Position numbers and translations under genes: made by a program. The notes beneath the pieces were generated by a model. It was not told the DNA's origin. It was given only the letters and a program-made list of their open reading frames with translations, and did not search any database. Below are positions 2,037 through 17,041 of a stretch of DNA of 21,803 nt, in pieces. Position 1 is the stretch's first letter, and each line of letters starts with the position of its first letter. Source of the stretch: a virus; the IMG/VR virus record IMGVR_UViG_3300034061_002198, positions 1 to 21,803 of that record. One strand, 5' to 3'.

Positions 2037-3110
2037 TTATTTATTTAAAATTTCTTTGTATGCTTCAAAGCGTTCTGTTGCTACATTGCTCATGTGGTAG
2101 CGTTGAACATCAATATATAATTGCGCCCTTAAATCTTCAACAAGATTCGGATTGTCTATTAGCTTCGTCATGTACTTATACCAATCGTTTTTATGTTTAA
2201 CTTTTAAGCAATTAACATTATGTTTCAAGTCAGGTGAATAAGGGTAAACATCGCTGCATATTACTGCTTTCATTTTAAACCCTGATTCTAATAATTTAAG
2301 GTTTGATTTATTGTTATTGAAACGATTATTGCGAAGTGGTATAAGCGATACGTTTATCAAATCATAAAAGTTGCCATATTCTTTAACTCCAGTTTCTTTG
2401 AAGATTCCAAATTGAGATTCACTTGCCTTGCCCCTTGCGCTCAATACACTAAGTATAGCTTGACTTGTTTCAGACTGCGTTGCAAATCCTCCATAAACAA
2501 CTCTAAACTTATCTTTATAATCATCTGCGGTGTAAAGTGAATACAAACCATCGTGCATTAAAATAACATCTTCTAGGTGCGTTATTGAACCACTCCATCC
2601 GAAGTTTAACTTACCATTGAATTGTGGTTCTCTTAATTCAAAATGTCCCTCTGGATAAATTCCATTAGGTACTATGTAAATATTTTTTTGTCCTAATTCC
2701 TTATTGAGTGTGCTTGCTAATAATTCATGAGTAGTGGTGCAGGCGGTTGCGTTCTTAACTGCTAAACTAATCTGTTCGGTGTGGTTGCCATCCTTTGCTG
2801 CATAGTATAAGATATGATTTTTAGGAAGAATATAATCATCATCTAAGTCAATCACATAAGGAAGTCCAACTCTTTTTAGTTTATCAATTAGTGCCTGCGG
2901 TTCGTTTGTCTTTGAAGCAAACCTATTCATCACTACCAAATCAAAGTCCTTTAAGAACTCATCTGTTGCGCTGTCTACTTCATTTATTAGACTTATATCA
3001 ATCTCATCTTTGAAAAGGTCTGACATCACATTGTGCGGCATCCATAACCTATGATAATCAACTCCGCTTATCTTTGGATAACTTGGAACTACTATTAATA
3101 GTTTAATCAT
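2037..3110 (-). CDS. GT4-like glycosyltransferase
   Basis: A 357-residue GT-B type enzyme of the size expected for GT4. The N-terminus, LLIVVPSYPKISGVDYHRLWMP, resembles the opening of family 4 enzymes. YVIDLDDDYILP lies in the middle of the N-terminal domain, IYIVPNGIYP marks the linker, and NFGWSGSITHLED opens the C-terminal nucleotide-sugar domain. Near residues 280-300, NLKLLESGFKMKAVICSD corresponds to the EX7E-like donor-binding segment, with only one of the two glutamates obvious. The gene overlaps the sigma-like gene by 4 bases (ATGA). It is most likely involved in decorating a host surface polysaccharide or a virion protein; the acceptor is unknown. Confidence 0.75.
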   Translation of the reverse strand: MIKLLIVVPSYPKISGVDYHRLWMPHNVMSDLFKDEIDISLINEVDSATDEFLKDFDLVVMNRFASKTNEPQALIDKLKRVGLPYVIDLDDDYILPKNHILYYAAKDGNHTEQISLAVKNATACTTTHELLASTLNKELGQKNIYIVPNGIYPEGHFELREPQFNGKLNFGWSGSITHLEDVILMHDGLYSLYTADDYKDKFRVVYGGFATQSETSQAILSVLSARGKASESQFGIFKETGVKEYGNFYDLINVSLIPLRNNRFNNNKSNLKLLESGFKMKAVICSDVYPYSPDLKHNVNCLKVKHKNDWYKYMTKLIDNPNLVEDLRAQLYIDVQRYHMSNVATERFEAYKEILNK

Positions 3111-3568
3111 ATTTGTTTCGCTTTTTGTTTAATTTTTTCTTTGACAGCTCGAAGTGCTGAATAACTAATCCCAGTTAATCGTTGGACTTTCTTCATATCT
3201 CCAAACTGATTATATAATAAGATGATCCGATTCTCAAATTCATTTAAGGATAACATGAACTGCTCCGCTTCCTTTGTCATTATCTCTTTTGATAGTTCAC
3301 TTGGTGTGTAGATGTCAAATTCGATTAACTCCCTTAAAACTATTTTACCTAACTTTCCATTGCGTGACATTACGTTAAATGCTACCCGGTAAAACCAAAA
3401 CTTTAAATAGTTAAGTTCGGGTAATCTTTCATCTGATATTGTTAGAATTTCGCAGATAGTTTCTTGGTAAATGTCTTCAGCATAGTGTGTATTAATCTTG
3501 AAGCACATTTCTTTAAATGACTTGTCGCTAACAATTACATCAACCAAATGCAGCCTATCAGGTTTCAT
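3107..3568 (-). CDS. Sigma-70-like (ECF-type) RNA polymerase factor
   Basis: A 153-residue protein with a sigma-like two-part layout. Residues 29-70 hold YAEDIYQETICEIL, close to the region 2 core (DxxQExF type), followed by LKFWFYRVAFNVMSRNGK, equivalent to the 2.3-2.4 helix that melts and reads the -10 element. Residues 105-148 form a region 4-like unit with a helix-turn-helix (MKKVQRLTGISYSALRAVKE) that would contact the -35 region. It is shorter than cellular ECF factors, and divergence suggests a phage-specific regulator. It overlaps a 15-codon ORF upstream and the GT4 gene downstream by ATGA junctions. It may direct host polymerase to later phage promoters, though a plain DNA-binding role is possible. 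Confidence 0.6.
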   Translation of the reverse strand: MKPDRLHLVDVIVSDKSFKEMCFKINTHYAEDIYQETICEILTISDERLPELNYLKFWFYRVAFNVMSRNGKLGKIVLRELIEFDIYTPSELSKEIMTKEAEQFMLSLNEFENRIILLYNQFGDMKKVQRLTGISYSALRAVKEKIKQKAKQI

Positions 3569-6118: not shown

Positions 6119-6778
6119 TTATTCTATAATTTCTGAATTATTATTTTCATCCATTTCAGCAATCCATGCTTTAGAAAAATCTTTATCATTAAATAATTCA
6201 GATAAACCACCTATTTGGCATAACCTTAAAACTTCATCAGCATCCATACCTAAATTTTTAGCTATTTTTTCATCACTCCAATTACGTTTTTTTAAGTCTA
6301 TAACAATATCACTCATAGCATCTATTTTATGCTTACCTCTTGCTCTGTTATGTCTAATTGTAGATGCTACCCTATCATTAATTTGGGTTCTATCTTCATT
6401 TATTGTTACCACTGGTAAATACCCATGTACTCTACTTTGTATTTCTTCACATTCTTTACCAACTCTATTTCTATGAAATCCATCTATAACTTCCCTTGTT
6501 ATATTATCATCATTTAACATAGATACGATGGGCTGCGTATAACCATCTGCCGAAATACTTAATCTTAATAATTCCATTTCAGGTGGTGCTACAGAATTAG
6601 GGTTGTAATCATTTGCTGCAACCAAATTATTTTTTACCCATAAAACACAATCTACTGGTTCTGTTTTCATTGGACTAATAGAATGTAAAAACAATTTTAC
6701 ATCATTAATTATTGCTACTTTCTCATCTGTTGTTAATGATTCAAAACCATTAAACAATTCTTTAATTTTGTCTATCAT
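6119..6778 (-). CDS. ibrB: IbrB-like ParB/Srx-domain protein
   Basis: A 219-residue protein with a ParB/sulfiredoxin-type fold: GYTQPIVSML (79-88), then the signature DGFHR at 99-103. NRARGKHKIDAMSDIV at 144-159 and a C-terminal LSELFNDKDFSKAW are close to what I remember of IbrB, the partner of IbrA in E. coli that was described as an activator of prophage-borne eib genes. ParB/Srx domains bind or hydrolyse nucleotides such as CTP or ATP; the substrate here is unknown. It overlaps the IbrA-like gene by 4 bases (ATGA), so the pair is made together. The region after its stop contains the replication gene leader. Confidence 0.75.
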   Translation of the reverse strand: MIDKIKELFNGFESLTTDEKVAIINDVKLFLHSISPMKTEPVDCVLWVKNNLVAANDYNPNSVAPPEMELLRLSISADGYTQPIVSMLNDDNITREVIDGFHRNRVGKECEEIQSRVHGYLPVVTINEDRTQINDRVASTIRHNRARGKHKIDAMSDIVIDLKKRNWSDEKIAKNLGMDADEVLRLCQIGGLSELFNDKDFSKAWIAEMDENNNSEIIE

Positions 6779-7989
6779 AAGTTGAATTTATTTGTTTCTC
6801 GTTGTTCTTTTTTTAACTTTAAATACTTTTCATACGCTTTTGTTTTATGTTGAGTAAAACCTAAACCTTTACACCAAAAATCATTTCTTAATAAAGATTT
6901 ACAAACCCTCCTCCAACTTGGAGCAAGTTTTTGGCTTTCTAATATGCTTGGGGCTTGGTCTGGTAATCCTTGTTTATAGCCTCTCTCTTTCCACCATTTG
7001 TCAAATACATATATTTTATTCTTGTAATGTTCTGATGTCTTTTCAGGTAATGTATTTAGGATTAATTCTGAAAATGATTTCCATGTATGATTTTGTGGTT
7101 TTGTAATTTTACCATATCCATTAATATTCCCAGTATCTTGAACATACAATGCGCCACTATTTGCACCATTCACTCTTGCTACTACTTTTGCCCATGTTTC
7201 AGGTTCAATAAGATGAAATAACCATAATCCCCGCCTTTGGTCATCTCCATATGGTTGACAAATTCTTTGTAATGAAATTGATAAACCTGCTTTGTGCATT
7301 AAATCGTATAAATGATTATGTCTTTTATTTTTAAATTTCCCATGATAAATCCAAATATCTTCAACACTCCAATCATAAATTGGGTAAACATTAAATACAT
7401 TATCTGTTACTTTTGTAGTCCATTGTTTGTCTTTAAATGTTACTTTTGATTTGCTTGCTATTGTTCTAAAACGATTTAAACTTTCATCTGCTCTAATACC
7501 AACTAAACATGCACAAGTTTTACCTTCAGAATACCACTCGCCAAATTCAGGCACAAACTCTTCAAATTCCATCCCTACTCTAAAAAATGGATAATGTTCA
7601 ATATCTATAATTGCATTTTTAGGTGGTTGCCTTATCCAATCTTCTTTTTTTTCCGAATCCCAACATAACCAAAAAGGCTCAAAAACACTAACTGCATTTC
7701 TTAAATGTATTGGTAAACAAACCCAGTTTAAATCTATGTAGTCCGAATACATATTTATACATTCTTTCATATGCTCAATAGTTAATTTATATTGACCTTC
7801 TAAGTCAACAATCATTATAGCAATTTTTCTATTTCTTTTTATAGCCTCATCCATAACCATGTGAAGCATAACTGTGCTATCTTTTCCACCGCTAAAAGAT
7901 AAATAAACCTTTTCAAAATTATCAAATGTAAAGTTTATCCTTTTAATAGCCTCTTCATAAACATTCGTTTCTAATCTAATTTTAGGCAT
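6775..7989 (-). CDS. ibrA: IbrA-like PAPS-reductase/ATP-pyrophosphatase family protein with DUF3440
   Basis: A 404-residue protein of full family length. The PP-loop SGGKDS lies at 33-38 and would bind ATP or an adenylylated substrate. Later segments FEEFVPEFGEW, GIRADESLNRF, YPIYDWSVEDIWIY, RRGLWLFHLIEPETWA, KITKPQNHTW, EHYKNKIYVFDKWW and SWRRVCKSLLRNDFWC follow the IbrA/DUF3440 protein almost block by block. True PAPS reductases carry a catalytic ECGxH cysteine; I see no such tail, so sulfate reduction is unlikely. Family members occur with IbrB-type ParB proteins in phages and islands, where regulation or nucleic acid modification has been suggested. Operon order is partner gene, IbrA, IbrB, with a 19-base overlap upstream. 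Confidence 0.85.
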   Translation of the reverse strand: MPKIRLETNVYEEAIKRINFTFDNFEKVYLSFSGGKDSTVMLHMVMDEAIKRNRKIAIMIVDLEGQYKLTIEHMKECINMYSDYIDLNWVCLPIHLRNAVSVFEPFWLCWDSEKKEDWIRQPPKNAIIDIEHYPFFRVGMEFEEFVPEFGEWYSEGKTCACLVGIRADESLNRFRTIASKSKVTFKDKQWTTKVTDNVFNVYPIYDWSVEDIWIYHGKFKNKRHNHLYDLMHKAGLSISLQRICQPYGDDQRRGLWLFHLIEPETWAKVVARVNGANSGALYVQDTGNINGYGKITKPQNHTWKSFSELILNTLPEKTSEHYKNKIYVFDKWWKERGYKQGLPDQAPSILESQKLAPSWRRVCKSLLRNDFWCKGLGFTQHKTKAYEKYLKLKKEQRETNKFNL

Positions 7990-8369
7990 AATTGTAATTT
8001 ATTAACTTGTTTTTGTTCCCACTTATTTATTACTTCTTGTGCTAGTTTATCTGCAATATCTCTATTACTCTTACTAACTAAACTCCATGCTTGCATTGTC
8101 AAAGTAGAAGGTACTCCACCATATATACAACACGCTGCTTGTCCTATATACGCAATTCTATTTATTGACATATTAGATAAATTATGTTCGCATGAATAAA
8201 CCCATTCATTTGTTACTTTTTCCATAAAAGTTTTAGTAAGTTCATTATTGCTAAACATTTCAACTGATTTATTTATTAATTCATCTTTATTTTTTCCACC
8301 TATGTTATCATAAAAGCCTGCTTTATAATCTTCCCATAAGTCAAATGGATGCCATATTTGAGATATCAT
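7971..8369 (-). CDS. Conserved third partner of the IbrA/IbrB pair
   Basis: A 132-residue protein without a named domain known to me. Distinct blocks are IWHPFDLWEDYKAGFYDNI at the start, EWVYSCEHNLSNMSINRIAY in the middle (about 56-75), IGQAACCIYGGVPS (74-87) and a C-terminal helical stretch with MQAWSLVSKSNRDIADKLA. I recall the same blocks (WHPW..WEDY and SCEHNL..INR..W/YIGQAA) in short proteins encoded beside PAPS-reductase and ParB genes in other phages. The Cys/His residues suggest metal binding. It overlaps the IbrA-like gene by 19 bases and the winged-helix gene by 4, which supports a three-component system. Confidence 0.6.
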   Translation of the reverse strand: MISQIWHPFDLWEDYKAGFYDNIGGKNKDELINKSVEMFSNNELTKTFMEKVTNEWVYSCEHNLSNMSINRIAYIGQAACCIYGGVPSTLTMQAWSLVSKSNRDIADKLAQEVINKWEQKQVNKLQLCLKLD

Positions 8370-8632
8370 ATAGAATAATTATTTATAAGTTTTTTTGATG
8401 TCTTTTTAAAGTCAAGCGAATACTCAATGAATGAGCAACTATTGCCAAAGATTGAAAGTTTATTCACTCGTTCTTTTTTGATTGAGAATCCCAGTGCGAT
8501 GATGTCTGCTATTCGCTGCGGTAACTTGGTGCAATATCCAAATTGCTTTTGAGTTGCTTGAATTGATGTGATGTTGTTTCCTGCTATTAAATAGCAGATG
8601 ATTGCTTCGGTTTGTGTTTTTGGTTTTTTCAT
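8366..8632 (-). CDS. Winged-helix DNA-binding protein
   Basis: An 88-residue protein with a small winged-helix pattern: KTQTEAIICYLIAGNNITSI (helix 1), QATQKQFGYCTKLPQRIADIIALGFSI (recognition helices) and KERVNKL...FIEYSLD (wing strands). This resembles the short phage HTH proteins grouped as HTH_39. Such proteins are often found in early regions of Bacteroidota and Gram-negative phages, but their targets are not known. It lies 4 bases downstream of the alpha-CTD-like gene and overlaps the gene that precedes the IbrA gene. Confidence 0.6.
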   Translation of the reverse strand: MKKPKTQTEAIICYLIAGNNITSIQATQKQFGYCTKLPQRIADIIALGFSIKKERVNKLSIFGNSCSFIEYSLDFKKTSKKLINNYSI

Positions 8633-8636
8633 GATA

Positions 8637-8984
8637 TTATTGGTTTGTATTTTTTAAAACGTATTGCAATTCACTTAGACATTTGTTGCCGAAATTTCGG
8701 ATTCTCAAAAGGTCTCTGTCACTTAATTGTTCTAAGTCTTTTAAGGTGTAGATTTTATTATCCATTAAGCAATTCTTAGTTCGTACCGACAAATCCATAT
8801 CTTTTATAAAGACTTGTTGTTCGGGTTCTTTTTTCTCATTCTTTTCTTCGTTGTATTTTAATAAACCTGCAAAGACATTCTTTTCATGATATCTAAGCAT
8901 ACCTAATGCTTCGATTGGTGTAACATCATCAGACCATTTGATTGAGGTCTGTAATCCATTGTATTCTATTGTTATTTTTTTCAT
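8637..8984 (-). CDS. RNA polymerase alpha-CTD-like protein
   Basis: A 115-residue protein with two parts. Residues 1-45 are a short domain of their own (KITIEYNGLQTSIKWSDDV..EALGMLRYHEK). Residues 58-111 match the C-terminal domain of the RNA polymerase alpha subunit: DMDLSVRTKNCL (62-73), YTLKDLEQLSDRDLL and RNFGNKCLSEL. By alignment to E. coli alpha-CTD, the DNA-contacting residues R265, N268, G296 and K298 appear as R68, N71, G99 and K101; C269 is C72 and S299 is replaced by C102. No N-terminal dimerisation domain is present, so it cannot be an alpha subunit. It could bind UP-element DNA or host activators in place of the host domain. It overlaps ninG by 4 bases. Confidence 0.75.
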   Translation of the reverse strand: MKKITIEYNGLQTSIKWSDDVTPIEALGMLRYHEKNVFAGLLKYNEEKNEKKEPEQQVFIKDMDLSVRTKNCLMDNKIYTLKDLEQLSDRDLLRIRNFGNKCLSELQYVLKNTNQ

Positions 8985-9502
8985 TTTATTTTGTATTTGT
9001 TTTTAATTTCTTGTAATTCTTCTATTGTCCATTTCTTTGTTCGTGTTTCATTCGCTAAGTCTTCAAGTGCGATAACATCGTCAAGTCCTATTTTTTTAAT
9101 CAATCCTTGCCTGTATGCTGCGGTGTTACCATCTAAGTATTGGTTACAATAGCTGCATTGTTTATTCGTGTTCCTTTCGTCAAATATAACTCCGCTGTAT
9201 ATTTCTGCTTTTAAGTAATGACCACCATCCCATTTAGCTTCATTCGTTCCACAACTGATACAAGGGTCTTTCTCATCTCGTAATCTACACCACTTTTGAA
9301 AGTGTAACTTAATCGGATTTCTTAGCTGTGCTTGAGTTTTAAGTTTGTTTTTAGCTTCGGATTTTATCTCGGAATTAACTCGTTTTATGCTTGTTTTTTT
9401 TGGGTGCAACTTACCCCATTCAATAGCACATTGATATCCGCAGACACTAATTGTACTATTGAATTGAGTGAAATCTTTTTTGCATAATTTGCACTTAGCC
9501 AT
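8981..9502 (-). CDS. ninG: NinG/Rap-like recombination protein
   Basis: A 173-residue zinc-binding protein that matches the phage lambda NinG (Rap) family. An N-terminal CKLCKKDF...CGYQCAIEW segment (Cys 4, 7, 21, 25) is a small zinc knuckle. The middle has the family pattern FQKWCRLRDEKDPCISCG, then GGHYLKAEIYSG, NTNKQCSYCNQYLDGN and YRQGLIKKIG. NinG binds and processes branched DNA in the lambda Red pathway and has an HNH-like arrangement. It overlaps the exonuclease gene by 8 bases, which places it in a recombination module with a phage exonuclease. Confidence 0.9.
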   Translation of the reverse strand: MAKCKLCKKDFTQFNSTISVCGYQCAIEWGKLHPKKTSIKRVNSEIKSEAKNKLKTQAQLRNPIKLHFQKWCRLRDEKDPCISCGTNEAKWDGGHYLKAEIYSGVIFDERNTNKQCSYCNQYLDGNTAAYRQGLIKKIGLDDVIALEDLANETRTKKWTIEELQEIKNKYKIK

Positions 9503-10235
9503 AAATAGTTTTTAAATAGTTTCTCATTTCAATCACTCTACTTTGCATAAATTTTAATGTTTCATCATGCGCTGTAAATTCTCTTATGCAGATTCTATCT
9601 TCTATTGGTATAGGTACAAATCTATTGATTAACTTATCTGTAAATTCATCGCCACCAAGTCCACGAATATTTATAAACCTATCAAAGTTTTCTTGAGTAA
9701 ATATCATGTCGGTTAAAATTTGCACCTCTCTCCATTCAGGAACATCACCTTTGTAGTTCTCAATTTCAAGTGATTTTAAAACCATTTCATCAGGGGCATC
9801 AGATAAAATATAAATCAATTTAAAGTTTGAACGCTTGTATAAGTTCATGTATGCTCTACCCTGAAATACATAATCTTGGTTGATTTCATGTTTTGCATCA
9901 TCAAACGTAAATAAATCCCAAGCATTTTTAACATCAATTATAGTATCTGTTAATTCATCATCAATATCACATTCGCCAGTAAAGAAATCATTAGTAATTC
10001 TTACCTCATTCTTTTTAAAGTCTCTTTGAAGATAGTCTGAAAGTTCTTTTATGCTGCTTTCTTCGACTTTTGTTCCCTTGTCGGTGTATTTACTTGTAAA
10101 TGATTTTACCCTTCCATATTTATGCTCTAAATAGATTTTGCGGGCTAACTTCTCGCCAGTCTTACCAAGTCCTTTTGGTTTGCATATTTCGCCACTTTGA
10201 GAGGCTCTTACAATTATTTCATCTATGTTTACCAT
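9495..10235 (-). CDS. PD-(D/E)XK exonuclease (lambda Exo/RecB-like)
   Basis: A 246-residue nuclease. The active site reads in order: GTKVEES (E58/E59), TGECDID (D90), IIDVKNA (D101 and K103), and QGRAYM (Q125 and Y129), which fits the GxxxE, D, (D/E)xK, QxxxY series of lambda-exonuclease and RecB/Cas4-type nucleases. Such enzymes resect double-stranded ends for single-strand annealing and for replication or packaging. It is placed between NinG and a small protein that may bind single-stranded DNA. No RecT/Beta-type annealase is recognised in the neighbours, so that role may be filled by an unknown protein nearby. Confidence 0.75.
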   Translation of the reverse strand: MVNIDEIIVRASQSGEICKPKGLGKTGEKLARKIYLEHKYGRVKSFTSKYTDKGTKVEESSIKELSDYLQRDFKKNEVRITNDFFTGECDIDDELTDTIIDVKNAWDLFTFDDAKHEINQDYVFQGRAYMNLYKRSNFKLIYILSDAPDEMVLKSLEIENYKGDVPEWREVQILTDMIFTQENFDRFINIRGLGGDEFTDKLINRFVPIPIEDRICIREFTAHDETLKFMQSRVIEMRNYLKTIYG

Positions 10236-10239
10236 GCTT

Positions 10240-10587
10240 TTATTTTTTTATGTATTTAACTCTAACTGCATCTACCACTTGACCAAATGCGCTAACTGGT
10301 ACAACATGAAGTGTAATTGATTGCCCTATCCATTGTTCAGTGTATGGTGTATTTAATGATTTGGTGATTAGCTTCATGTTTTCTTTGTTTAGTATAAGAG
10401 GTTTTTTTGCACCTTTAAACATCATTAAAACACATGATTTTGTTTCTAATTTTTTACCATTAAATAATTCTACATTTTCGGATGTGATTGATTCAATAGT
10501 GACTTGTAATTCTTGATTTGGTTGAAAATCGTGACTGCCGATAAATCTATTATCAACAAGTTTTTTCCAGTGGGTTAATTCGTTCAT
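10240..10587 (-). CDS. Possible ssDNA-binding partner of the exonuclease
   Basis: A 115-residue protein with alternating hydrophobic strands (LQVTIESITSENVEL, KSCVLMMFKG, PLILNKENMKLI, IGQSITLHVV, VDAVRVKYIKK), compatible with an OB-type beta barrel. The opening block (LTHWKKLVDNRFIGSHDF) is one I recall from small proteins encoded beside phage exonucleases in Bacteroidota phages. The position just before the exonuclease suggests single-strand binding or annealing, but no signature residue proves it. The gene overlaps the preceding coiled-coil gene by 4 bases and is 4 bases from the exonuclease. Confidence 0.55.
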   Translation of the reverse strand: MNELTHWKKLVDNRFIGSHDFQPNQELQVTIESITSENVELFNGKKLETKSCVLMMFKGAKKPLILNKENMKLITKSLNTPYTEQWIGQSITLHVVPVSAFGQVVDAVRVKYIKK

Positions 10588-10814
10588 TGTAGTAGTTCAT
10601 TAATTTGTTTAATTGTTTGTTTGTATTGTTTTTCGTTATGTGTAATTTGGGCTTCGCAGTTCGTTATCTGTGTTAAGAACAACTTGCTACTTTGTGTATC
10701 TTGTACTTGACTCCATTTATCCTGCAAGAATATAATTTGTTCTTTGTAATCCCTAATGAGGTTCAAAATTTCTCTTAAATTAGTGGTCAAATCATTGATT
10801 AATTGGTGGTTCAT
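10584..10814 (-). CDS. Small coiled-coil protein
   Basis: A 76-residue, Gln-rich, wholly helical protein with hydrophobic residues at heptad spacing (LTTNLREILNLIRDYKEQII and ITNCEAQITHNEKQYKQTI). No domain is recognised. It is coupled by ATGA junctions to both neighbours in the recombination module, so an accessory role there is possible. Confidence 0.55.
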   Translation of the reverse strand: MNHQLINDLTTNLREILNLIRDYKEQIIFLQDKWSQVQDTQSSKLFLTQITNCEAQITHNEKQYKQTIKQINELLQ

Positions 10815-11008
10815 TTTAGTTCTTTTAGTAATTCGTTGAATAATTCGGTTGCTTCTTTTGTTGATGATCGGTACTGGACTAATCCTACACCTTTCTTATA
10901 ATGGATAATCCGATAGTTAGCGTTGGTTAAATCACGTTCTAATACTATTTGTTCAGTTTTGCCCCATCTATAATCTAATCGCTTGTGTGTTGGTTTCTCT
11001 CTACTCAT
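10811..11008 (-). CDS. Small basic hypothetical protein
   Basis: A 65-residue basic protein (MSREKPTHKRLDYRWGKTEQ at the start, then an alternating pattern NYRIIHYKKGVGLVQYRSS and an acidic helical tail). It might fold as a short beta hairpin plus helix, but I recognise no family. It overlaps the following gene by 4 bases and the preceding one by 8, so expression as part of the operon is likely. Confidence 0.5.
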   Translation of the reverse strand: MSREKPTHKRLDYRWGKTEQIVLERDLTNANYRIIHYKKGVGLVQYRSSTKEATELFNELLKELK

Positions 11009-11234
11009 AACTTAAATCTCCTTTGTTCGTTAATGATGTGTATTCAATCTGCAATTTAGCTACTAATTCGGTTTGCTTATCCCACTCATTCAATGCTGCG
11101 GTGCATTCTTTGTAGGCTTCATCAGTTTCATACAAATAACGTCTGTTCAATGCTGCGGTGTGGTTTCTTTGGCACTCTAATAGTCGATGTTTTTGCCTTT
11201 GTAACTCTCGGTATTCTATTGATATTTCTCTCAT
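11001..11234 (-). CDS. Small coiled-coil protein with TAALN repeat
   Basis: A 77-residue helical, highly charged protein. An internal repeat is seen: HTAALNRRYLYETDEAYKE followed by CTAALNEW. The repeated TAALN is encoded by the same DNA in both cases (TTCAATGCTGCGGTG on the plus strand, 57 bases apart), which contains two of the CTGCGGTG octamers. The family is not recognised. Confidence 0.5.
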   Translation of the reverse strand: MREISIEYRELQRQKHRLLECQRNHTAALNRRYLYETDEAYKECTAALNEWDKQTELVAKLQIEYTSLTNKGDLSYE

Positions 11235-11494
11235 ATTATCTTTGTTATTAAAGGGAATGATTCGTTAACTTTAAATTCGTTTATTCGCTCTTGAGTTTCT
11301 GACATTAGTTGATTCAAATAGGCTCTTGCATCTTTTTCGTTTACAAAAAGTGTCCTATCAATTACATCAGCCCTTCCGTTATGGTGGCTGTGGCATACTT
11401 CATATAACTTCTTTTCATATAGATACTGCAATCTGAAACCATTAGCACCTATTGAGGTCTGCTCGAGTGTTGTTATGTGTCTTGTTCTTGGCAT
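11231..11494 (-). CDS. Hypothetical protein
   Basis: An 87-residue protein I do not recognise. The first half is beta-rich (FRLQYLYEKKLYEVCHSHH, then RADVIDRTLFVN) and the second half is helical (EKDARAYLNQLMSETQERINEF). The order, with a strand pair followed by a helix containing DARAYLNQL, could be a small fold that binds nucleic acid. It overlaps the next gene by 4 bases. Confidence 0.5.
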   Translation of the reverse strand: MPRTRHITTLEQTSIGANGFRLQYLYEKKLYEVCHSHHNGRADVIDRTLFVNEKDARAYLNQLMSETQERINEFKVNESFPLITKII

Positions 11495-11502
11495 ATTAAA
11501 TA

Positions 11503-11706
11503 CTAAACTTTATTTGACTTTTTAAGAAATTCAATTTCCTCTTTAATATTCAGCATAGAATTGTATTCTAATTCTACTTTTAAAGAATTTATAATTTTAC
11601 CTGCGGTGTTGGCTAATTCTTTACCAACATTTAAACCCATTTTTCCTGCTTTCATTCTTGTGTAATTGTCAGCAAGGCTTGTTCTTAATTCTGTGATGTT
11701 TTGCAT
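11503..11706 (-). CDS. Conserved small phage protein
   Basis: A 67-residue helical protein (ELRTSLADNYTRMKAGKMGL, VGKELANTAGKIINSLKVEL). The block L..NY..LK.GK....GKELANTAGKII..L resembles short proteins encoded in early regions of many Bacteroidota and Gram-negative phages, which have no known function. It overlaps the zinc-ribbon gene by 22 bases. Confidence 0.55.
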   Translation of the reverse strand: MQNITELRTSLADNYTRMKAGKMGLNVGKELANTAGKIINSLKVELEYNSMLNIKEEIEFLKKSNKV

Positions 11707-12128
11707 AATCTTTTTGTTTTAATTATTAATTTTTGTACTTCTATTATTTCAGGATTATTTGTAATTTGTTCGTTTGTAAACCCCTTTTGTTTTAATTTTG
11801 CCTTTAAGTAACTTGGAATAAGGTCTAACTTTTGTCTTTTATCACTTAACCGATTTTTAGCCATAATATGTGGTTTTTTATTATAGTCTTTTTGATATTG
11901 TAAAAAAACATCAGATTTTGTATATTTTTTAAGATATTCTTTTCTTTTTTCGGTTTTTTGATATTCCTTACAATATAGTTTAAACCTTTCAGATTTTGTA
12001 TATAATTTATAGCAATCCTTGCATTGGTAATATTTCCCGTCCTTTGTTCTTTTATGAGTAAAAAAACAATCTAATAATTTTTTTTCGTTACAAGTTCCAC
12101 ATTTTTTTAATTTAATTTCTGATTCCAT
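11685..12128 (-). CDS. Zinc-ribbon (HNH-adjacent) Lys-rich protein
   Basis: A 147-residue protein with a clear zinc-binding start: CGTC at 10-13 and CKDC at 36-39, separated by a loop with FFTHKRTKDGKYYQ. This zinc ribbon often precedes HNH endonuclease domains in phage proteins. Here no HNH catalytic block follows. Instead, the rest is extremely Lys/Tyr-rich with near-repeats (KLYTKSERFKLYCKEYQKTE, KEYLKKYTKSDVFLQYQKDY). It may be a DNA-binding protein, or a homing endonuclease relic that lost its catalytic part. It begins at a TAATG junction with the upstream gene. Confidence 0.6.
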   Translation of the reverse strand: MESEIKLKKCGTCNEKKLLDCFFTHKRTKDGKYYQCKDCYKLYTKSERFKLYCKEYQKTEKRKEYLKKYTKSDVFLQYQKDYNKKPHIMAKNRLSDKRQKLDLIPSYLKAKLKQKGFTNEQITNNPEIIEVQKLIIKTKRLCKTSQN

Positions 12129-12736
12129 TATGGTTCTATTATTAAAGGTTGACCACCCATGTTAAGATATGCTTGACAGATTTCTTCAAGGCTCATATCA
12201 TTTAGATCATACATTACTGGTATCTCTTTATGTTCAGGAACTCCGAAGTCGCAGGTATCAATTAATGCGGTGTCTTTGTATTCGCTTATTGCGGTTAATA
12301 CCTGGTCATAATTAAGGATTGAATTAAAGACAAAAAAAGATTGCTTAGGTGTGTATTGTACCTCTATAATATGTCCAAGTGTATCGTGTATGGTGCTTAC
12401 TGCGTATTCAACTTCATGTCCTAATCTGTTACAATAATAAATCGCTTCTATTAGTTTATCAAACTCGCTGTTATTATTAGGAGTTGAAAGCAAGAAAGTT
12501 TTTTTCATGTATTGGATAAACCAATCCAAGTGATTAGGTCTTTTCATTAGCATACTATCGTAGATGTCGCTAAACATCTTGCGTGCTGTCTCAACTTCAT
12601 TTAGTGTGTTAAGCATCGCTAATGCTATTCCTAATTGCGCTTGATAGTTTGGAGTTGTAAAGACTTCATCATCTTCGTTTAATTCTTGAAAGTTGCGGAT
12701 AAGGCATTCTTTAGTAGTTTGGTGTGGTGTTGTCAT
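12128..12736 (-). CDS. Hypothetical protein
   Basis: A 202-residue acidic protein with no recognised domain. It is mainly helical in its first half (YQAQLGIALAMLNTLNEVET, ARKMFSDIYDSML) and mixed later (IIEVQYTPKQSFFVFNSIL). There is no signal peptide or membrane segment. It lies in the early operon 4 bases downstream of a 70-residue gene and is coupled by TAATG to the zinc-ribbon gene. Confidence 0.5.
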   Translation of the reverse strand: MTTPHQTTKECLIRNFQELNEDDEVFTTPNYQAQLGIALAMLNTLNEVETARKMFSDIYDSMLMKRPNHLDWFIQYMKKTFLLSTPNNNSEFDKLIEAIYYCNRLGHEVEYAVSTIHDTLGHIIEVQYTPKQSFFVFNSILNYDQVLTAISEYKDTALIDTCDFGVPEHKEIPVMYDLNDMSLEEICQAYLNMGGQPLIIEP

Positions 12737-12740
12737 TTGA

Positions 12741-12953
12741 TTATGGTTTAATAAGTGAATTGTGGATTGAATTTAATAAATTTATAATGATAGTTTCATC
12801 TGCTTCTTTTGCGAATTTCTTAACAGCATCGGGAACGCTTAAATTACATAGTGTTAGTGCTAAGATAGTTTCAAATTCCTCTTCAGTTTCAATAAGAATT
12901 GTAATTGCTTTTGGTTGAAATGCTAATTTGTGGTTTTCCTTTGTTACTTTCAT
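12741..12953 (-). CDS. Small conserved hypothetical protein
   Basis: A 70-residue protein with one beta-rich segment followed by helices: KAITILIETEEEFETILALT, then CNLSVPDAVKKFAKEADE. The block ITIxIETEEEFxxI..L..LSVPxAV is one I recall from small early proteins in Bacteroidota phages; their role is unknown. It lies 22 bases after the ParB-like gene. Confidence 0.55.
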   Translation of the reverse strand: MKVTKENHKLAFQPKAITILIETEEEFETILALTLCNLSVPDAVKKFAKEADETIIINLLNSIHNSLIKP

Positions 12954-12975
12954 TTTAGTTTAGGTTTATTTTTAT

Positions 12976-13668
12976 TTAAATTTTTATTTTGTCTCCGCCT
13001 TTATTCCACTTATTTAAAATATTTTCAAATAATTGAATGTAATCAGTATAATTAGCTTGTTGTTTTATTGATGGTATTGCATTTAATATTTTATTTATTT
13101 GTTTTTCATGCAAACAATTGCATGCTCTTGATAAAGCCACTATAAATGCCTTAGTATCTGCAAACCCTATTATTTTTTTTACTTCTTGTAATTTGCTTAG
13201 TATGTAAAATCTTTTAGGGTTTATGTTTATTGGTTTACCTTTTCTGATAGTAGATGATTTGACGCTATCTATAAAATTCGGATTAGTTGCCATCACTAAT
13301 GCGGCTGTGCTTGATACACCAGAAGTTTCCATAAAATGTTTCAATTCTGCATATCCTAATATTCCATCGCTTGCATGCAGATTTATATAGTCTTTTAATA
13401 ACCAACTATTCTGACTTTTGTTTAATTCTTTCATCGCAATAGACATATCAATATCTGTTACCTCATAATATATAGGTAAGCCTAAATTAACACATGCTTG
13501 GAATCGGTGTTGCCCATCAATGATTAGAAATTCTGGATTTACTAAAATTGATTTTGATGAAACAAAACCTATTTTATTAATTGAGTCTTCAATAGACTTT
13601 ACTTTTGCAGGCACTAAAACTCTGTTTTGTTTTGCAAATTTAAAAAGATTGTAATTTGTAGTTTTCAT
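12976..13668 (-). CDS. ParB/Srx-fold protein
   Basis: A 230-residue protein with an N-terminal ParB/sulfiredoxin-type domain: LVPAKVKSIEDSINKIGFVS (helix and strand) then LIIDGQHRFQACVNLGLPIY, in which DGQHR at 51-55 is the family signature. The C-terminal part (about 100-230) is helical with no clear HTH. This is the second ParB-type gene in the window; it differs from the IbrB-like one by having no NRARGKH block. Phage members of this fold have been proposed as nucleases or DNA-modification partners. It is followed by 22 non-coding bases, and 1 base separates it from the gene upstream. Confidence 0.7.
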   Translation of the reverse strand: MKTTNYNLFKFAKQNRVLVPAKVKSIEDSINKIGFVSSKSILVNPEFLIIDGQHRFQACVNLGLPIYYEVTDIDMSIAMKELNKSQNSWLLKDYINLHASDGILGYAELKHFMETSGVSSTAALVMATNPNFIDSVKSSTIRKGKPININPKRFYILSKLQEVKKIIGFADTKAFIVALSRACNCLHEKQINKILNAIPSIKQQANYTDYIQLFENILNKWNKGGDKIKI

Positions 13669-13669
13669 T

Positions 13670-13897
13670 TTAGTTTAGATTTAATATTTGGTATGAATTG
13701 ATTTGATTTAATTTGATTGTGAGTTCTTTTAAAAGTCTGTTAGCTTGATAAACTTTGCAGAATGTATTATCATCTATTGCAATGTTTCGCAGCCTTTGAA
13801 CACGCTCGTAACGTGCAAGGATAGTGTTTGATTTTGATTTGTTCTGCATGGTCGTTACTTGTTCGCCATACATGATTTTTTTTAGTAGTTTTTCCAT
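13670..13897 (-). CDS. Small basic hypothetical protein
   Basis: A 75-residue basic protein (MEKLLKKIMYGEQVTTMQNK to the C-terminal NSYQILNLN), probably helical, with ARYERVQRLRNIA in the middle. A second in-frame Met at residue 17 is an alternative start. No family is recognised. Its place between a HTH protein and a ParB-like protein suggests a regulatory or accessory role, but nothing in the sequence shows it. Confidence 0.45.
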   Translation of the reverse strand: MEKLLKKIMYGEQVTTMQNKSKSNTILARYERVQRLRNIAIDDNTFCKVYQANRLLKELTIKLNQINSYQILNLN

Positions 13898-13900
13898 GTT

Positions 13901-14134
13901 TTAGTGTTCGATTAATTGGGTTAATTTGATTTCTTGTGTTAATGGTTCGGTGTAATTAGCGTGCTTTTTAAAGTAGCTAAGGAAACTATCTGTTGTCAAC
14001 TTGGGGCTATTGTTTACTGCCCACCTTTGAATGGTTCGATCATTGCAGCCTAAATCTAAACTTAATTTTATTCGTAAGTTGTAGTCGGTCGCTAACTGGT
14101 CTCGGTTTGCTTTTGTCATTTCTGTTCTTGTCAT
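13901..14134 (-). CDS. Helix-turn-helix regulator-like protein
   Basis: A 77-residue protein with a probable helix-turn-helix: NLRIKLSLDLGCNDRTIQRWAVN (about 19-41), with G30 at the turn and RTIQRW in the recognition helix, as in Cro/repressor-like or transposase-like HTH proteins. It is the second gene of the early operon, so it could act on the inverted repeat in the promoter 380 bases upstream. The remainder (LTTDSFLSYFKKHANYTEPL) is helical with no catalytic motif. There are 37 non-coding bases between it and the first gene. Confidence 0.55.
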   Translation of the reverse strand: MTRTEMTKANRDQLATDYNLRIKLSLDLGCNDRTIQRWAVNNSPKLTTDSFLSYFKKHANYTEPLTQEIKLTQLIEH

Positions 14135-14171
14135 TATTAATGCAGTTGGTTGGATGCTGCTCCCCTTTTTT

Positions 14172-14489
14172 TTATTTAGTTAAATTTTCAAATGTTACAC
14201 AATCTTTTTTAATATCATCCCAAACCATTCTACTACCATTACCATCAATAGATAATGATGAGAAAACTGTATCTCCATGTTTGTATATTGGTTGAACTAA
14301 TTCTTGCTCACTCCAATATGCTTTTTGTTGCACATAAGATTTTAAAGATGATAATCTTTTTTTGTAAATCATTCCACTATTTTTTTCTAAAGTAGTTGCT
14401 GTATTACCTTTTATTTCAGTAATTACATTTACTCCAAAAGCATTTGAAAATGTTACTTCTTGTCCGATTTGAAAATTTGTTGTTGTCAT
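14172..14489 (-). CDS. Hypothetical protein, first gene of the early operon
   Basis: A 105-residue protein I do not recognise. It is beta-rich (NFQIGQEVTFSNAFGVNVIT, then TATTLEKNSGMIYKKRLSSL and KHGDTVFSSLSIDGNGSRMV), which resembles small SH3- or OB-like barrels that read as GxxV...G.V..I. A promoter with a consensus -33 box lies 23 bases upstream. Being first in the operon it should be made early and in large amounts, as many anti-host proteins are, but that is inference. Confidence 0.5.
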   Translation of the reverse strand: MTTTNFQIGQEVTFSNAFGVNVITEIKGNTATTLEKNSGMIYKKRLSSLKSYVQQKAYWSEQELVQPIYKHGDTVFSSLSIDGNGSRMVWDDIKKDCVTFENLTK

Positions 14490-14511
14490 ATTTGTTTCGT
14501 TTATCTGAGTT

Positions 14512-14542
14512 CAAATGTCGGAGTATTGTACGACATTACAAA
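14512..14542 (-). promoter_or_regulatory. Early operon promoter TTTG-N19-GACATTTG
   Basis: On the minus strand TTTG (14539-14542) is followed after 19 bases by GACATTTG (14512-14519), one mismatch from the Bacteroidota consensus TTTG-N19-TAnnTTTG. The start codon of the first early gene is 23 bases downstream. The spacer contains a 7-bp inverted repeat, which suggests regulation. Confidence 0.7.
14514..14537. promoter_or_regulatory. Candidate operator AATGTCG-N10-CGACATT
   Basis: A perfect 7-bp inverted repeat with a 10-base spacer lies between and partly over the -33 and -7 boxes of the early promoter, exactly where a repressor dimer would block polymerase. The regulator could be the HTH protein encoded two genes into the operon. 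Confidence 0.55.
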
Positions 14543-14604
14543 ATAATGAATGAAAATAAATCATAACTTACTATAAATCAAGCTAATATTTTTTAGCATA
14601 AACG

Positions 14605-14637
14605 TAAAAAAAGCCCCAAAATGTTACTTTTGAGGCT
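14605..14637 (-). terminator. Rho-independent terminator after the spanin gene
   Basis: In minus-strand RNA AGCCTCAAAA and TTTTGGGGCT form a 10-bp stem (one T-G pair) around a 6-base loop, followed by seven T. It lies 25 bases after the spanin stop codon and isolates the spanin unit from the early operon. Confidence 0.9.
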
Positions 14638-14661
14638 GTTCAACTGTTCGGAAATCCCGAA

Positions 14662-15099
14662 CTACTCACTCTTTTTATGTGGCATAATGAGGTAGAACCC
14701 CAAAAACATAGCTAAAAACCCAATGACAGCGAACCAATCCCTCGCTTTTATGTATAAGGTCTCCCACCATTCTAATTTCTTAACCTTTGTTGGCACTTGC
14801 ACCTCAATTAATTTTGTCTTATAGATAGTATCTGATTTGCATTCGCCTTGTATATAAATCTTTTCGCCTACTTTTTTATATCGAATCTCTAAGCGGTCTT
14901 TGATGATCGTAAAACTATCAATACTTGAATTGAAGAATGTATCTACTTTGATTGCCTTTATAACTATTGTATCATGTACTATAATTGAATATGGAATACT
15001 ATCAGTTGAACAAAATTTCTCTATTGCTCGTTTCTTAGTGTATAAGCAACCAGATAATAAGCTAATCAAACATAAATGTAATAATAAGAGTTTTTTCAT
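14662..15099 (-). CDS. Unimolecular spanin (u-spanin) candidate
   Basis: A 145-residue protein with the layout of a u-spanin. Residues 1-18 are a lipoprotein signal: MKKLLLLHLCLISLLSGC with lipobox LLSG-C18. Residues 19-115 are an extended, beta-rich periplasmic region with repeated motifs of the kind VHDTIVIKAIKVDTF and CKSDTIYKTKLIEVQV. Residues 119-138 (WFAVIGFLAMFLGFYLIM) form one membrane helix and the tail HKKSE is positive. This anchors one protein in both outer and inner membrane, as phage T1 gp11 does, to fuse the membranes at the last step of lysis. It stands alone between terminators, away from the endolysin. Confidence 0.7.
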   Translation of the reverse strand: MKKLLLLHLCLISLLSGCLYTKKRAIEKFCSTDSIPYSIIVHDTIVIKAIKVDTFFNSSIDSFTIIKDRLEIRYKKVGEKIYIQGECKSDTIYKTKLIEVQVPTKVKKLEWWETLYIKARDWFAVIGFLAMFLGFYLIMPHKKSE

Positions 15100-15120
15100 A
15101 GTTTTATTTGTTTATTTTGA

Positions 15121-15128
15121 CAAAGATA
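15121..15128 (-). promoter_or_regulatory. Candidate -7 box TATCTTTG of the spanin gene
   Basis: The minus strand reads TATCTTTG, a full TAnnTTTG match, 22 bases before the spanin start. No TTTG is seen 19 bases further upstream. Terminators on both sides of the spanin gene make a private promoter likely. Confidence 0.5.
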
Positions 15129-15374
15129 ATAATTATTTACGGCAATGAGTTATGAGTTATAAGATGGTAATAATAAATGTTACTACCCCTACCCCTAAGA
15201 GATAGTAACCTTATTACCTTACTTACGTATAATTGAGAATTGAGAATTAAGTTTTGGTTCAAAAAGGATAATGTTACATCCATGCTTTTGATTTAAAATA
15301 TTTTTTGTGATAGTCATAAAAGACCTTGCACATCGGCTCATACACTTATAGTTGGTCGCCTTATGTTGTAGGCA
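15129..15374. other. Non-coding stretch with short tandem heptamers and a hairpin
   Basis: No convincing gene lies here. Visible items are TGAGTTA twice in tandem (15146-15159), TGAGAAT twice in tandem (15234-15247), a 7-bp inverted repeat GTTACTA/TAGTAAC (15179-15185 and 15203-15209) around a loop containing CCCCTACCCCTA, and a 40-codon minus-strand ORF (15219-15341) without known similarity. The 7-bp repeats resemble AT-rich intergenic repeats common in Bacteroidota genomes. Confidence 0.5.
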
Positions 15375-15407
15375 TAAAAAAAGCCCTCAATGTCGCACTT
15401 GAAGACT
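15375..15407 (-). terminator. Second late terminator
   Basis: In minus-strand RNA AGTCTTCAA and TTGAGGGCT form a 9-bp stem (two G-T pairs) around the 8-base loop GTGCGACA, followed by seven T. It lies 114 bases after the first terminator. Its loop is complementary to the loop of the hairpin at 15454-15471. Confidence 0.85.
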
Positions 15408-15453
15408 AATTTTATATCCTATCTACCCGAAAGTAATATTTTTAATATCTTTA

Positions 15454-15471
15454 GTTAAGTGCGACCTTAAC
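15454..15471 (-). ncRNA. Hairpin with loop complementary to the terminator loop
   Basis: In minus-strand RNA GTTAAG-GTCGCA-CTTAAC forms a 6-bp perfect stem with a 6-base loop. The loop GTCGCA is an exact complement of TGCGAC in the loop of the next terminator 47 bases downstream. In total 9 bases (GTCGCACTT and AAGTGCGAC) can pair. Either a small RNA ending at the second terminator or a structured 3' end of the late mRNA is suggested. Confidence 0.4.
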
Positions 15472-15520
15472 AACACTTCAAAAGTCGGATTTAATTTTAA
15501 CATAAAAAAATAATTTTTAA

Positions 15521-15550
15521 AATAAAAAAAGCCCCGATTTACTCGAGGCT
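15521..15550 (-). terminator. First late terminator
   Basis: In minus-strand RNA AGCCTCG and CGGGGCT form a 7-bp stem (one T-G pair) around the loop AGTAAAT, followed by seven T and further A/T. It begins 67 bases after the stop of the metallophosphoesterase gene and ends the late operon. Confidence 0.85.
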
Positions 15551-15616
15551 CTTAACCAAATTAATGAAACGAAATCTACAAAAAACTACTCCTGCAAATA
15601 TACTAAACTTTTAAAC

Positions 15617-16612
15617 CTAAAAAATTTTTCCTTCTATTATTGATTTTTGATAAAATTTATAATCTCCATTTTGACTAAGTTCTAAATACCCGAAGCCATG
15701 TGTCCACATATTGATTGGCATATAAGCAGGATGCAAGTCACATAAACAACCGATTGAGAAACATGAATAAGGGTGTTCATCTAAGTTTTTGCCCATGTCT
15801 TTTGTTTCTCGATGAAAGTGCGATGTTACTGCACTTTTGTTCAACTTCAATCTTAAAGAACGTGCAGGATTTACACCACCGGAAGTAAGTCCAGTTTCGT
15901 GACCATGAAATATTGCTAACTTTCCTGCATAGATGTATTGAGTTGAATCTACTTTGATAATATTTAAATCTCTTAACTTTAAAAGTTCATGCAGTTTTAT
16001 AAATTCAATGTCATATACCTCGGGTGCTTTTTGCATTATGTACTTGTCATACCTTAAATCATGGTTTCCATAACTCCAAACTATTAATGCTTTTGGGAAC
16101 ATAGCCCTCAAACCTTTTAAGAATACTCTTGTACAATCCATTTCGTATTTGACTGACCTTTTCCTCATGTCCTTTTCGTGTCTCGATATTGTGGCAAAAT
16201 CCGTCAAATCTCCATTGATTATGATAGTATCTACTTCCTGGTCTAATCCGTATTCTAATGCTGCGAATACTGCATCATCATTGTGGTAAGGAATATGCAA
16301 ATCGCTTATAATTAAAATCTTTTTACTTGCTTTTGGTAGTGTATAGGGTTGTATTCTTTCGCTTTCTCCCTTTGGTAGTTCTTTTTTTAGTGCTTCAAAT
16401 TGTTTGCGAAATTCAACATGAGTTTCTTGTTTGTTTTTAACACCATAAACACCTTTTAAAATTCTTATGTGATTCCTAACTTGTTCGAGGTCTTTGTAAA
16501 CACTTTTGTTTTCAGCATAAATCTTCTTTGCTAAAGTCATATTCGCAGTGTTAGGGAACTTTAACAAATACTCTTTTGCGATGTCGGATTTAATACTTGG
16601 TTGACCTGCCAT
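15617..16612 (-). CDS. Metallophosphoesterase
   Basis: A 331-residue protein with two parts. Residues 1-60 (SIKSDIAKEYLLKFPNTANM, then LEQVRNHIRILKG) resemble a small HTH-like domain found at the start of several Bacteroidota phage proteins. From about residue 94 the calcineurin-type metallophosphatase motifs appear in order: ISDLHIPY (DxH), INGDLTDF (GD), SYGNHDLRY (GNHD), FHGHETG and SHFHRE (HxH). Such enzymes use two metal ions to cleave phosphodiesters, which may be nucleotides or nucleic acid. It is the last gene of the late operon, directly after the endolysin, and is followed by two terminators. Confidence 0.85.
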   Translation of the reverse strand: MAGQPSIKSDIAKEYLLKFPNTANMTLAKKIYAENKSVYKDLEQVRNHIRILKGVYGVKNKQETHVEFRKQFEALKKELPKGESERIQPYTLPKASKKILIISDLHIPYHNDDAVFAALEYGLDQEVDTIIINGDLTDFATISRHEKDMRKRSVKYEMDCTRVFLKGLRAMFPKALIVWSYGNHDLRYDKYIMQKAPEVYDIEFIKLHELLKLRDLNIIKVDSTQYIYAGKLAIFHGHETGLTSGGVNPARSLRLKLNKSAVTSHFHRETKDMGKNLDEHPYSCFSIGCLCDLHPAYMPINMWTHGFGYLELSQNGDYKFYQKSIIEGKIF

Positions 16613-17041
16613 TTATAAGTGGAATAATTGTGCTTCTGCTTTTCTGCGATTTACTAAGCCTTGTAATACCTTACCGCCTCCCGTTGTGTAGTGTGTTTCC
16701 CACCATTGTTTAAGGTCTTTAGACTTGCTATTAACTAATCTAAATAAGGTTTCAGACTTACCGCAATTCCATGCGAAAGAAACTAAGGCATCAAATTGGT
16801 ATTGGGTTAAATCTATCTTGATATTCTTATTTACTATCGCTTCATATTGTGGCAATAAATCCATCAATAATTCTTCCGCTTGTTGCTGTGTAATCTTATC
16901 GCCTAATTTTATTTTAGATCCATTTTTATAAAAGGTATTTCCATAACCAATCGTGACTAATCCAGCAGGGCAAGTATAAGCAGTTAGTTTGCAGCCCTCA
17001 AATTTTTTGATTAATCCTAATCCTCTAATTCCCGTTTTCAT
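16613..17041 (-). CDS. GH24 endolysin (T4/lambdoid lysozyme type)
   Basis: A 142-residue muramidase that cuts peptidoglycan between MurNAc and GlcNAc. The catalytic series is E15 (KKFEGCKL), C24 (YTCPAG) and T30 (VTIGYGNT), the E, D/C, T spacing of the family. T4 lysozyme has Asp at the second site; Cys is common in many phage enzymes and is active there. DALVSFAWNCG (about 86-96) and LVNRRKAEAQLF at the end are also family features. There is no signal or SAR sequence, so it must pass a holin made by the neighbouring membrane proteins. It overlaps the holin-like gene by 17 bases. Confidence 0.9.
   Translation of the reverse strand: MKTGIRGLGLIKKFEGCKLTAYTCPAGLVTIGYGNTFYKNGSKIKLGDKITQQQAEELLMDLLPQYEAIVNKNIKIDLTQYQFDALVSFAWNCGKSETLFRLVNSKSKDLKQWWETHYTTGGGKVLQGLVNRRKAEAQLFHL

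Follow-up and report, generated by a model that had tools for sequence, protein, structure and literature searches.

The window analyzed here, a 21,803-nt stretch of a virus of Bacteroidota bacteria, encodes a 115-aa protein that, with near certainty, carries a genuine C-terminal domain of the RNA polymerase alpha subunit (alphaCTD). The gene and the neighbors that bear on it are as follows.

8637–8984, minus strand: 115-aa ORF with an ATG start, N-terminal beta-beta-alpha module plus alphaCTD
8649–8813, minus strand: alphaCTD, residues 58–112 (from PF03118 and the VIA-align superposition on 7vpd_S)
8835–8984, minus strand: N-terminal module, residues 1–50 (strands 2–8 and 11–17; helix from 23 to about 49)
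8981–9502, minus strand: NinG/Rap recombination endonuclease gene, directly upstream with a 4-nt overlap (PF05766, E 9.3e-37)
8366–8632, minus strand: HTH_39 winged-helix gene, directly downstream (PF14090, E 1.3e-6)
3107–3568, minus strand: sigma-like gene, a possible functional partner (TIGR02937 sigma70-ECF, E 6.5e-6)

Identity of the 115-aa protein

Residues 47–111 aligned with positions 2–66 of the 67-position Pfam profile PF03118 (RNA_pol_A_CTD) at E 1.7e-18, scoring 66.5 bits against a curated cut-off of 23.8. When PDB sequences were searched with phmmer, every match down to E 0.051 was an RNA polymerase alpha chain, and the top non-alpha match, a topoisomerase II, appeared at E 0.089. 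The predicted structure (mean pLDDT 79.9, pTM 0.45, from an alignment of 12 sequences) consisted of two strands, a long helix, a lower-confidence linker, and the four alphaCTD helices. Among the 50 PDB matches listed by Foldseek, all were RNA polymerase alpha chains or polymerase complexes, with a TMt of 0.92 for the alphaCTD fold; VIA-align superposed 57 residues on 7vpd_S at 0.8 Å rmsd (Z 11.7, 37% identity), and the solved alphaCTDs fitted by the model include DNA-bound ones. A RAD51/Dmc1-type HhH domain also fitted (Z 9.2, rmsd 1.6, 19% identity), so that the fold alone sets the alphaCTD apart from this type only modestly, and it is the sequence that settles the identity. A generic HhH or RAD51-type identity was rejected, given its worse fold fit and strong sequence matches to RpoA only. 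Neither profile search nor structure prediction gave best matches to unrelated HhH proteins; profile score, RpoA-only strong PDB matches, and fold thus uphold the preliminary description of this ORF as an alphaCTD protein.

The same description took the protein to be a free alphaCTD lacking the alpha N-terminal domain. The second part was borne out: Pfam and NCBIfam recognized no such domain in the 115 residues, and the NCBIfam RpoA models scored the protein at 37.8–61.2 bits versus cut-offs of 227.8–523. The word "free" is inaccurate, however, since a structured N-terminal module precedes the alphaCTD. Modeled alone with AlphaFold, this module reached a mean pLDDT of 87.1. It found no match at E 10 in the phage collection, only a 10-residue run in gasdermin among PDB sequences, and no Foldseek match below E 4.2. 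Phrog_11210 matched weakly (E 0.019 with the whole protein; at best 0.054, for five of six members, with the module alone), and the top row in structure comparison, the RSV nucleoprotein (Z 4.8), was taken as a chance likeness. The module is therefore a beta-beta-alpha unit without a known relative in the searches run.

We judge the gene to be real and under purifying selection, stronger in the CTD, because its dN/dS against nine close relatives was low, at about 0.13–0.26 (NG86; dN 0.034–0.094, dS 0.164–0.618); dN of the CTD part was 0.019–0.027 in the nine comparisons.

We compared residues at the alphaCTD positions that contact DNA, in E. coli numbering: R265, N268, C269, N294, G296, K298, S299, and E302. 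The first seven were invariant in an alignment of 64 RpoA, a panel of long ORFs (length at least 315) from fetched loci taken as RpoA; since ORF length set the panel, L040, L035, and L058 (RpoA or parts of it) lie outside it. The mapping given previously (R68 to R265, N71 to N268, G99 to G296, K101 to K298) proved correct in the aligned columns, and the window protein keeps seven of the eight residues, with S299 replaced by C, as in the main lineage of the phage family. Across 13 distinct family rows, R265, C269, N294, and G296 were kept in all and N268 in 12, while K298 was present in all 12 rows reaching that column. On the sigma side, the acidic D62 and D64 correspond to D259 and E261. In the relative from a metagenome-assembled genome (MAG; L041, row L044), N268 is replaced by K, E302 by Q, and E261 by R; in L012 (row L065), E261 is replaced by G. 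Together with S299C, these substitutions indicate that strict conservation extends over neither the full DNA surface nor the sigma surface.

Family, gene neighborhood, and origin

The family comprises 15 loci: the window, 13 IMG/VR contigs (12, and then L024) with relatives at 61–93% identity in the best segment, and L041. Four remoter IMG/VR loci (L026–L029) also matched, with a different architecture, and no further members emerged when viral contigs were scanned with the module, with the CTD, or with the two divergent relatives. L041 was the one contig recovered by the genome_contigs scan (one of 31 pattern-matching stretches); it belongs to a Bacteroidetes MAG, its relative is 57% identical, its gene content agrees with that of the phage, and the same MAG also has its own RpoA. 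A match at E 1e-5 occurred in 57 of the 64 genomes of the MAG's family, and the matches other than that of L041 lay mostly in ORFs of about 330 aa that were 46–51% identical over the CTD and that we regard, by length, as RpoA. The window protein resembles the alphaCTD of RpoA (PF03118) in its sequence, in its predicted fold, and at most of the positions that contact DNA; unlike RpoA, it lacks the alpha N-terminal domain, has C at S299, and lies on a long branch, and its identity to RpoA of the MAG's family is the 46–51% given above.

NinG lay upstream in 15/15 family loci (in L016 at a distance of 1,375 nt, in L019 close to where the contig begins); HTH_39 lay downstream in 14/15, L024 being cut off there. 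Conversely, five other neighbors (ORF10240, an exonuclease, ORF7971, a PAPS reductase, and a ParB-like gene) were common to the window and L023 only. The NinG–alphaCTD–HTH_39 trio is thus a stable core within a mosaic region.

Other features of the window were also recorded. A DUF3440/PAPS-reductase-like gene (phrog_2302) is followed by a ParB-like gene (phrog_2159) with a 4-nt overlap (6119–7989, minus strand); the product of the former has weak similarity to DndC (E 5e-8). PADLOC gave no hit for the 115-aa protein. A gap of about 0.5 kb (15099–15617) holds three terminator-like hairpins on the minus strand and is possibly the border of lysis/structural versus early genes; the region scanned, 8300–16700, held no excess of terminators (4 versus a shuffle mean of 3.7).

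A tree of 73 alphaCTDs over 61 columns, with ten long-branched or distant loci and L113 left out, united the phage family (support 93/89), a grouping that recurred in 93% of bootstrap trees. The branch leading to it measured 2.25 changes per column, and the tree did not fix where among Bacteroidota RpoA it joins. The phage alphaCTD thus appears as a long-branched lineage and no recent copy of host rpoA, although with 61 columns only this is weak evidence on origin.

alphaCTD proteins in other phages and in Bacteroidota

The alphaCTD had been called little described in phages. A full-text literature search, with subscription journals mostly outside its scope, found no paper on a phage-encoded alphaCTD, and the available part of a jumbo phage overview treats sigma factors and gp33 without an alphaCTD passage (PMC7824862). 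In the main text of a review of alpha-like subunits, the word "phage" is absent; alphaCTD is described there as binding UP elements, activators, and NusA (PMC13374769). PglW of the BREX system has a domain resembling alphaCTD (PMC12839542). In databases, however, phage alphaCTD proteins are already annotated, so that the window protein joins a known kind that is apparently unstudied in the literature searched.

Such annotated alphaCTDs occur in several phage groups. Several predicted viral structures are already labeled "RNA polymerase, alpha subunit, C-terminal," and the best BFVD match of our protein was A0A6J5QDR9 (E 6.1e-5). Proteins of uncultured Caudovirales, Rhodococcus phage Finch, and Mycobacterium phage Mithril have the same C-terminal fold, and those of the uncultured Caudovirales phages are likewise small (98–135 aa), but they are only 14–31% identical to the window protein in structural alignments, their N-terminal parts being compared by Foldseek. 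Microbacterium phages have an alphaCTD within a "DNA binding protein" (Atraxi, PF03118 E 4.5e-11). The "RNA polymerase subunit alpha" of Bacillus phage Goe8 (210 aa) is also non-RpoA with an alphaCTD at its end, but has another N-terminal part, resembling a stretch of Bacillus phage SBSphiC. In Goe8 (L014, 1959–2588) the N-terminal 143 residues match SBSphiC at 31.5%, with the alphaCTD outside the match, so that an alphaCTD may have been added to, or dropped from, a phage protein. Since the Goe8 alphaCTD groups with Firmicutes RpoA (99/93), its capture was separate from that of the window family.

We read the ORFs of 7 of the 18 matching phage-collection records. In five (H1, H3, H8, H9, and H12) the match was RpoA or part of it, while the matching ORFs of Goe8 (H15) and of the Ruegeria phage V16 (H18) were not RpoA; most phage-collection matches thus seem to be host rpoA. 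Five phage-named public records (L035, L036, L037, L038, and L040) carry whole or partial rpoA and look like host DNA. The best 25 of 62 records in a plasmid search were annotated as RpoA or carried no annotation, and none concerned the phage family.

Within the class of the MAG, PF03118 matched at E 1e-5 in 292 of 296 genomes, more than once in 14 of them. Thirteen of these were searched again, the fourteenth being the MAG itself, and gave 30 matches, 17 of them beyond the first of each genome; ORFs were read for 15 of the 17, and the other two (L126 and L127) were RpoA by length. The extra alphaCTDs include Sigma70_r4 fusions, a DUF1801 fusion, and short proteins whose genes have AbiEii or SNF2 genes nearby. 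The Sigma70_r4-like plus alphaCTD proteins, with L026, are the following.

L130, 1102–1710: above the Sigma70_r4 cut-off
L132, 1114–1719: below the cut-off
L139, 703–1704: above the cut-off
L026, 7320–8255: above the cut-off
L129, minus strand: 335 aa, read by eye only

Like the window protein, these fusions hold an alphaCTD outside RpoA, and L026 is on viral contigs; unlike it, they carry sigma region 4 (some also HTH_17). Genome G257 has a tandem array of three short alphaCTD-like genes beside an SNF2 helicase gene (L141, 58–1692), and a further copy follows an AbiEii nucleotidyl transferase gene (L133, 1282–1689). DUF1801-type Bacteroidota proteins (L135 at 1015–1674, L136, and L138) end in an alphaCTD-like HhH in which R265 and N268 are missing in the alignment; the Pfam analysis of these covered L135.

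Possible action at promoters and its alternatives

We tentatively favor, at a little short of even confidence, the reading that the 115-aa protein is a phage transcription factor whose alphaCTD works next to sigma region 4 on AT-rich promoter DNA. In the scheme that we infer for its timing, DNA binding, sigma contact, and direction of effect, a true alphaCTD, captured long ago and carried by the N-terminal module, would be made probably early or mid-infection, with the module perhaps oligomerizing or holding a partner. The alphaCTD would grip the minor groove of UP-like, AT-rich promoter DNA via R68, N71, N97, G99, and K101 and would sit by sigma region 4 of a host or phage sigma through D62 and D64, and the promoter choice of host RNA polymerase would be altered in infection. 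The DNA-side and sigma-side residues point to action at promoters, as do the Sigma70_r4 fusions of Bacteroidota, an arrangement to be expected if an alphaCTD acts next to sigma region 4. Counting against this reading are S299C, the replacement of N268 and E302 in L041, and the lack of the sigma-like gene in L016. A scan of 8300–16700 gave no excess of sigma70-type sites (39 versus a shuffle mean of 42.5), a consensus from which Bacteroidota promoters depart.

The sigma-like factor proposed 5 kb downstream is ORF 3107–3568; it matches TIGR02937, but its 25.9 bits fall below the curated cut-off of 42.9, and among PDB sequences it had no convincing match (best E 0.42, unrelated). The gene was found in five of the seven relatives' records searched (G002 and G006 were without it), and in seven of the eight loci reaching far enough (the window, L015, L017, L018, L019, L020, and L025). 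The eighth, L016 from G002, runs from a MazG-like gene to a putative terminase (by eye) and lacks it, so that the pairing of alphaCTD and sigma-like gene is usual but not obligatory. That the detached alphaCTD acts in trans as an extra UP-element-reading arm, directing host RNA polymerase to phage promoters together with the phage sigma-like factor or the host sigma, we consider unlikely.

It is similarly doubtful that the protein is a decoy or inhibitor that dampens host transcription by competing for activators or UP elements with the alphaCTD of the host: its DNA-side and sigma-side residues are host-like and it lacks the alpha N-terminal domain through which alpha is assembled into polymerase, but the activator patch (positions 285–288) is by eye unlike both E. 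coli and host-type RpoA. The constant position beside NinG, overlapping it by 4 nt in the window, makes a recombination role possible, in which the protein, as a DNA-binding partner of NinG or of the recombination genes, would use its HhH on branched or plain DNA and have no part in transcription. The RAD51/Dmc1-type fit agrees with this; the better fit of alphaCTDs, strong sequence matches to RpoA only, and the kept alpha DNA residues argue against it, and we hold it to be quite improbable.

Very unlikely, in our judgment, is a truncated alpha, in which the module would be what is left of the alpha N-terminal domain, namely its last hairpin and helix, and the protein could pair with host alpha: phmmer and NCBIfam alignments extend into the end of that domain, Foldseek alignments cover at least 115 columns of several whole RpoA chains, and hhalign of residues 1–57 finds RpoA 197–218, the right place (score and place were both matched by 7 of 400 column shuffles), but the score alone was reached by 48 of the 400, adding residues 1–57 did not raise the CTD profile score (118 versus 121), and the module alone, besides lacking a Foldseek match as described above, matched one plastid RpoA at only Z 2.6.

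On the promoter reading that we favor, the 115-aa protein is a good candidate for a transcription regulator, and no new kind of system. Many bacterial activators dock on alphaCTD, and a near-intact alphaCTD fixed beside NinG would make it possible to test directly whether phages use a borrowed polymerase arm to redirect transcription.
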